A stretch of 64,000 bases of DNA from NCBI RefSeq assembly GCF_033472595.1, contig NZ_CP137642.1:248001-312000 (forward strand). Direction: 5' to 3'. The translations under genes were made by a program, and so were the position numbers. Numbering within the stretch: position 1 is the first letter of the stretch; each line of letters starts with the position of its first letter. Source of the DNA: Methanoculleus receptaculi. GTDB lineage: Archaea > Halobacteriota > Methanomicrobia > Methanomicrobiales > Methanoculleaceae. This document shows positions 38,080 through 40,431 of this stretch, one piece after another. The notes under the pieces were generated by a model, which saw nothing but the letters and a program-made list of their open reading frames with translations, was not told where the DNA came from and did not search any database.

Positions 38080-38730
38080 TTATGCCTGCTGCTCGTCTCC
38101 AGGCTCCTGCCTGGCGCCCTTCCACTCCCCTTTCAATTCGGGATAGTCCGCGAGAACCTTGCTGACCGTGCTCCTGCTCACGTCGAACATCCTGCAGATC
38201 TGGCTGATGCTTGTCCCGGCCTCTCGTAGAGTGATGAGGGCCTGTACCTGACCCTCGGTGAGCGCCTTTGGTCTACCGATGGGACGTCCGCGATCCTTCT
38301 TTGCTTTTTTTGAGGCTGCCGGAACGATTTTCCGGGCGTTCTCACGGTAGTGCTCCATATACTCGATGAAGTCGGCAATGGCCGCTCTCCTCTGCTCCGG
38401 ATCATTCGGGAACCCGAAGAAATCGTTATGCACGCAGTAGACGGTACACTGCTCATTCAAGGACTTCAGAGCGGCAAGCCCTGCGTCAGGATCCTTTGCA
38501 AGTCCTGCAAGATCGTATATGATGATGTCCCGGCAGTTGTTGGCAGCACAGTACTCAAGCATCCCGCTAAAACCCTTGCGCTTCTCCGGGGGGGTTGCAT
38601 ATGCACGGTGATCGTGGAAGATTTCAACAACGCGAAATCGATATTTGCAAAAGTCATCAAACTCCGCCTTTTGTGTTGCATAATCCTCCTTATTTCTTGT
38701 ATTCAAGTATGCAACTGCATCCTTTTTCAT
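38080..38730 (-). CDS. serine-recombinase-like protein lacking catalytic residues
   Basis: 216 residues with the resolvase fold order: N-terminal strand AVAYLNTRN, helix DYATQKAEFDDFCKY, strand VVEIFHD, RKGFSGMLEYC, DIIIYDLAGLAKD, and the long helix DFIEYMEHYRENARKI. A Hin-type HTH follows: GRPKALTEGQVQALITLREAGTSISQICRMFDVSRSTVSKVL. Compared with gamma-delta resolvase YARVST and DRLGRD, the nucleophilic serine and three arginines are replaced (Asn10, Arg12, Leu74, Leu77). It should bind DNA but not cut it, so a regulatory role is likely. Local AT-richness differs from its neighbours. The ATG at 38730 is set by the TATA box. Confidence 0.75.
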   Translation of the reverse strand: MKKDAVAYLNTRNKEDYATQKAEFDDFCKYRFRVVEIFHDHRAYATPPEKRKGFSGMLEYCAANNCRDIIIYDLAGLAKDPDAGLAALKSLNEQCTVYCVHNDFFGFPNDPEQRRAAIADFIEYMEHYRENARKIVPAASKKAKKDRGRPIGRPKALTEGQVQALITLREAGTSISQICRMFDVSRSTVSKVLADYPELKGEWKGARQEPGDEQQA

Positions 38731-38752
38731 CCGTTTATGATCCCGTCCAATC

Positions 38753-38762
38753 ATATATATTA
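38753..38762 (-). promoter_or_regulatory. TATA box of the recombinase-like gene
   Basis: Minus-strand TAATATATAT centred 27 bases before the ATG at 38730, giving a leaderless transcript. Confidence 0.55.
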
Positions 38763-38772
38763 TTTTTGAAAA

Positions 38773-38814
38773 CGCACAAAGTGCGCCTTTTTGCGGTACT
38801 GGCCGAAATACCGC
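38773..38814 (-). promoter_or_regulatory. two inverted repeats upstream of the recombinase-like promoter
   Basis: CGCAC-AAA-GTGCG occupies 38773-38785 and GCGGTA-N10-TACCGC occupies 38793-38814, directly upstream of the TATA box. Their place suggests operators, perhaps for the gene's own product. Confidence 0.4.
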
Positions 38815-40411: not shown

Positions 40412-40431
40412 ACTTCGTGAAATGTCGAAGT
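40412..40431. promoter_or_regulatory. inverted repeat between ribK and the divergent regulator, possible operator
   Basis: ACTTCG and CGAAGT form a perfect 6+6 repeat with an 8-base spacer between the two divergent TATA boxes. It is a candidate site for the HTH of the ribK product or for the divergent regulator. Confidence 0.4.

Follow-up and report, generated by a model that had tools for sequence, protein, structure and literature searches.

A resolvase-like protein of Methanoculleus receptaculi is probably a domesticated serine recombinase that kept its DNA-binding role

We analyzed a gene in a window of 64,000 nucleotides from Methanoculleus receptaculi (contig NZ_CP137642.1, positions 248,001 to 312,000), the window being the whole stretch of DNA under study. 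The gene probably encodes a domesticated DNA-binding protein derived from a serine recombinase, with a dimeric transcription factor as its most likely form. A serine recombinase would have been captured early in this methanogen order, or in the ancestor of four of its families, would then have lost its chemistry and would have stayed as a chromosomal DNA-binding protein. Its helix-turn-helix (HTH) and minor-groove arm may bind a conserved sequence, while the resolvase fold would have exchanged catalysis for a part in dimerization, in DNA synapsis or in sensing through a pocket.

Gene and domain organization

The gene lies on the minus strand, with its start at the ATG 38728-38730 and its stop at 38080. 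This ATG was taken as the true start because the orthologs begin there and a TATA-like element lies upstream. The features of the coding region are listed below, with the evidence used for each in parentheses.

38080..38730, minus strand: coding sequence for 216 aa and a stop codon, its product predicted to be a catalytically dead serine-recombinase-like protein (ORF, Pfam, ortholog starts)
38416..38730, minus strand: N-terminal resolvase-fold domain, residues 1-105 (alignments, AlphaFold model, VIA-align, dN/dS)
38329..38415, minus strand: former E-helix region, residues 106-134, candidate dimerization helix (predicted helix 111-135, dN/dS)
38116..38283, minus strand: HTH_7 DNA-binding domain, residues 150-205 (Pfam HTH_7, dN/dS, alignment)

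The ORF and the Pfam matches bear out the originally described intact, resolvase-like frame and its Hin-type HTH. The 216-aa protein matched PF02796 (HTH_7, the Hin/gamma-delta-type HTH) at 1.3e-12 and PF00239 (Resolvase) at 3.6e-7, above the cut-off of the latter, and hhalign to serine recombinases gave 99.6-99.8%. A search of NCBIfam returned no family above cut-off. The HTH_7 domain includes the minor-groove arm (IGRP) and a C-terminal PELKGEWKG, and both IGRP and SRSTVSK are without variation across a 25-member ortholog alignment.

An AlphaFold model built from three sequences only (pLDDT 69, pTM 0.49) supports the predicted fold, not its details. Its top structural matches by VIA-align were serine recombinases (Z 11-13), with 2r0q, the regulatory complex of Sin, in first place (Z 13.1); the match to 2rsl, gamma-delta resolvase, had a Z of 11.5, at 2.5 Å over 112 residues. 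The model also predicts a helix at residues 111-135.

Loss of the catalytic residues

Catalytic residues were counted in 57 orthologs, with identities to the window protein from about 38% to 91%. The gamma-delta and Hin reference sequences of the residue alignments were cross-checked by a PDB sequence search and with active archaeal relatives.

In the window protein, YLNTRN stands where active enzymes have Y-x-R-V-S-T, with Arg8 changed to Asn and no Ser at the nucleophile position, and LDRLGRD aligns with LAGLAKD, which changes Asp67 to Ala, Arg68 to Gly and Arg71 to Lys79. Two features of active serine recombinases are missing, namely the Ser of YxRVS and the pair of Arg8 and Arg68. Position 10, equivalent to Arg8, was Asn in 48 of the 57 orthologs (Val in 3, Ser in 3, Arg in 2 and Thr in 1), and position 76, equivalent to Arg68, was never Arg (0/57). 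The loss of Arg8, Arg68 and the nucleophilic Ser had been predicted from the window and was recovered family-wide; the prediction had also named close homologs with intact Ser and Arg residues as a sign of recent decay, and the search for them among the 57 orthologs gave a negative answer. The YARVS-type and DLTRLGR-type motifs are retained in active relatives, both within the order and in a further family of the phylum. The supposed loss of Arg71, however, did not hold. It had been counted because of a misplaced register (DLAGLA, where LAGLAKD fits), and 33 orthologs carry Arg at position 79 while 22 carry Lys (55/57 together), the Lys of the window reading as a conservative change.

The ortholog family has one residue fewer in the loop between Tyr6 and Gln19 than active enzymes do, and the register of the nucleophile is, on these alignments, ambiguous by one residue: the Ser10 equivalent is Arg12 if no gap is placed and Thr11 in the profile-profile alignment. 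This ambiguity weighs against a dead enzyme, as do the seven orthologs, all of family f2, with Ser at the Thr11 position. Residual activity with such a shifted nucleophile (Thr11, or Ser in some orthologs) would also be in line with the retained Asp36, Arg45 and Arg/Lys71, yet it is highly improbable, given that position 11 is Ala in three orthologs (Thr in 47), that Arg68 is missing in 57/57 and Arg8 in 55/57, and that the locus is static. In resolvase, Arg8 and Arg68 contact the scissile phosphate and Arg71 has been proposed as a third contact (PMC4499144). Since Arg68 is gone in all orthologs and Arg8 in nearly all, cleavage of DNA by this family appears very unlikely in either register.

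The remodeled active site (YLNTR / D40 / R51 / LAGLAK) is itself conserved. Tyr8 (Tyr6 of resolvase) was found in 57/57 orthologs, Asp40 (Asp36) in 56/57 and Arg51 (Arg45) in 54/57, and position 12 was Arg in 51 and Lys in 6. Tyr30, Phe32, Arg114 and Phe121 are also well conserved. The strong conservation of these four residues and of the pocket (Tyr8, Arg/Lys12, Asp40, Arg51) suggests that the N-terminal domain does something specific and is not an inert scaffold.

Distribution, descent and selection

The gene is present as one copy in the host genome and in 32 of 35 Methanoculleus genomes. The three genomes without it are 83-88% complete, and every sampled Methanoculleus genome with a completeness of at least 90% carries it. 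Across the order, an ortholog with E < 1e-60 was found in 63 of 150 sampled genomes, with weak matches, via active-type resolvases, in five more; in the phylum sample outside the order, only more distant, active-type relatives were detected. Several families of the order in the 150-genome sample have no such gene, which weighs against the proposed domestication and means that the gene is not universally needed.

In the gene tree, a long branch (support 100/99) splits the dead family from its active relatives, and the orthologs cluster largely by taxonomic family, with some branches not settled. The gene is vertically inherited, family by family. Selection was evaluated by protein region as the median of pairwise dN/dS values, which was lowest in the HTH (0.053) and highest in the linker (0.307), with 0.106 for the catalytic domain (residues 1-105) and 0.206 for the former E-helix (residues 106-134). 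Medians this low in the catalytic domain (0.11) and the HTH (0.05) show that the gene is not decaying, and the dN/dS values together with the orthologs rule out recent decay. The lower constraint on the E-helix (0.21), which dimerizes gamma-delta resolvase, is a point against a dimeric transcription factor. According to synteny, dN/dS and the gene tree, the gene has been passed on vertically, has kept its locus and is held under purifying selection. The domestication put forward in the original prediction is thus borne out by an ancient loss of catalysis, purifying selection on both domains, vertical descent and stable synteny.

Chromosomal neighborhood

The resolvase-like gene is convergent with RPA2-RPA1 in nearly every genome having enough flank, the exception being L041, where the RPA genes lie on the opposite side and at a distance. 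Upstream, rbkR and ribB are found in families f1, f3 and f4 and in part of f2. In two f2 genera, a TrkA-C/Kef-type antiporter-like pair, recognized by eye, is located upstream (L073 5894-7494 and L077 5341-6963). A role in riboflavin synthesis, considered from the rbkR-ribB neighbors, is weak because these two genera carry the membrane-transporter-like pair in their place. Taken together, the neighborhood does not appear to reveal a target.

Four genomes, from families f5 and f6 (L121-L124), have ribB and RPA2 directly convergent, 16-506 bp apart, with no resolvase between them. This empty site may be ancestral, or the gene may have been lost cleanly. Neither a remnant nor an active resolvase was found at the same locus in families that lack the gene. 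In one relative without the gene, the RPA1-RPA2 pair is tandemly duplicated (L127 326-4436).

Elsewhere in the window, rbkR and an HTH regulator gene are divergent, and the promoter region between them contains a perfect 6-bp dyad, ACTTCG-N8-CGAAGT, at 40412-40431. Because its core is largely conserved across Methanoculleus, this dyad is a likely operator.

Promoter and inverted repeats

Three elements were mapped upstream of the start codon.

38753..38763, minus strand: TATA-like element of the core promoter, lying some 25 bp before the ATG (sequence, conservation in Methanoculleus orthologs)
38773..38785, no strand assigned: inverted repeat 1, CGCAC-AAA-GTGCG; present, without support as an operator
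38793..38814, no strand assigned: inverted repeat 2, GCGGTA-N10-TACCGC; present, without support as an operator

The position of the TATA-like element implies that the leader is short or absent. Both repeats exist exactly as originally described, and they had been proposed as sites through which the protein might regulate its own gene. An autorepressor bound to inverted repeats directly upstream of its own TATA box would follow the habit of classical resolvases, which repress their own promoters. However, when the same 121 bp were dinucleotide-shuffled, 26% of the shuffles contained an equal or larger number of dyads and 38% contained a dyad with 6-bp arms, so that the repeats stand at chance level. 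Repeat 1 is kept solely in one other ortholog, from the nearest species, whose protein is 91% identical, and repeat 2 was found in none of the ortholog promoters. The genome search that had been suggested for further copies found each repeat in one place only. The repeats are therefore unsupported as an operator.

A conserved TATACGATTNTACGGCA block between the TATA-like element and the ATG occurs almost nowhere but at this promoter in the majority of Methanoculleus genomes and is not kept in other genera. As an operator it was rejected, since the control promoters of neighboring genes, compared by per-column information, are similarly conserved within the genus; the block, conserved only as much as these controls, likewise counts against an autorepressor, which we regard as improbable. 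No alternative operator was established by promoter comparison within the genus or in other genera. Autoregulation of the gene is, on the promoter sequences, possible but unsupported.

Proposed function

A resolvase with the S10A substitution still binds and synapses DNA (PMC4499144), and binding without chemistry is therefore normal for the resolvase fold. The same ability of an inactive resolvase to make synapses would suit an architectural or nucleoid-associated protein, one that is no promoter-specific regulator and instead bends or bridges DNA, much as the regulatory tetramer of Sin, which is non-catalytic, does at the accessory site. The retention of the resolvase fold under selection, the lack of a promoter-specific site in the repeat and promoter comparisons and the Sin regulatory complex as the closest structural match are all consistent with such a protein. 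Nevertheless, the HTH, including its recognition helix, is very strongly conserved, which suggests sequence-specific sites, and we consider an architectural role unlikely.

A transcription factor of probable dimeric form is the preferred reading. More speculatively, and with low probability in our view, this whole methanogen clade might use the serine-recombinase fold as a dedicated transcription factor of its core genome, the former active site having become a pocket that senses phosphate or a ligand and so governs binding to DNA. Annotation by homology would name the gene a recombinase, very probably wrongly. If the protein is a regulator, it would offer an ortholog-rich case of a site-specific recombinase that has lost its chemistry and kept its fold and DNA-binding domain, and would be a candidate, so far unknown regulator among the core genes of widespread methanogens.

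Comparison with known systems

The family shares with Tn3/gamma-delta resolvase and Hin invertase its domain order, the resolvase fold and an HTH_7 with a minor-groove arm, and it keeps Tyr6, Asp36 and Arg45 of the small serine recombinases. Unlike these enzymes, it has lost Arg8, Arg68 and the canonical Ser10 family-wide, its loop is one residue shorter, it has acquired the conserved motifs KYRF and PELKGxWKG, and its gene occupies a stable chromosomal locus with no sign of a mobile element. Beyond the family, the catalytic domain has its closest detected homologs among active-type archaeal serine recombinases from another family of the phylum (L092-L096, E 1e-13 to 3e-26), which keep YARVS-type and/or DLTRLGR-type motifs and differ from the family in their C-terminal parts. 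Sin at its regulatory site (2r0q), the best structural match, has the same fold in a DNA-bound, non-catalytic role, but Sin is a competent enzyme, whereas the family studied here is predicted not to be.

A limited search of the open-access literature brought up no earlier description of such a dead serine recombinase. The review PMC8987985, on the recruitment of mobile elements, describes Xre, RHH and antitoxin cases among exapted regulators, and no dead serine recombinase was seen among these cases. The family resembles such exapted transcription factors in being an HTH protein derived from a mobile element, vertically inherited and under purifying selection.
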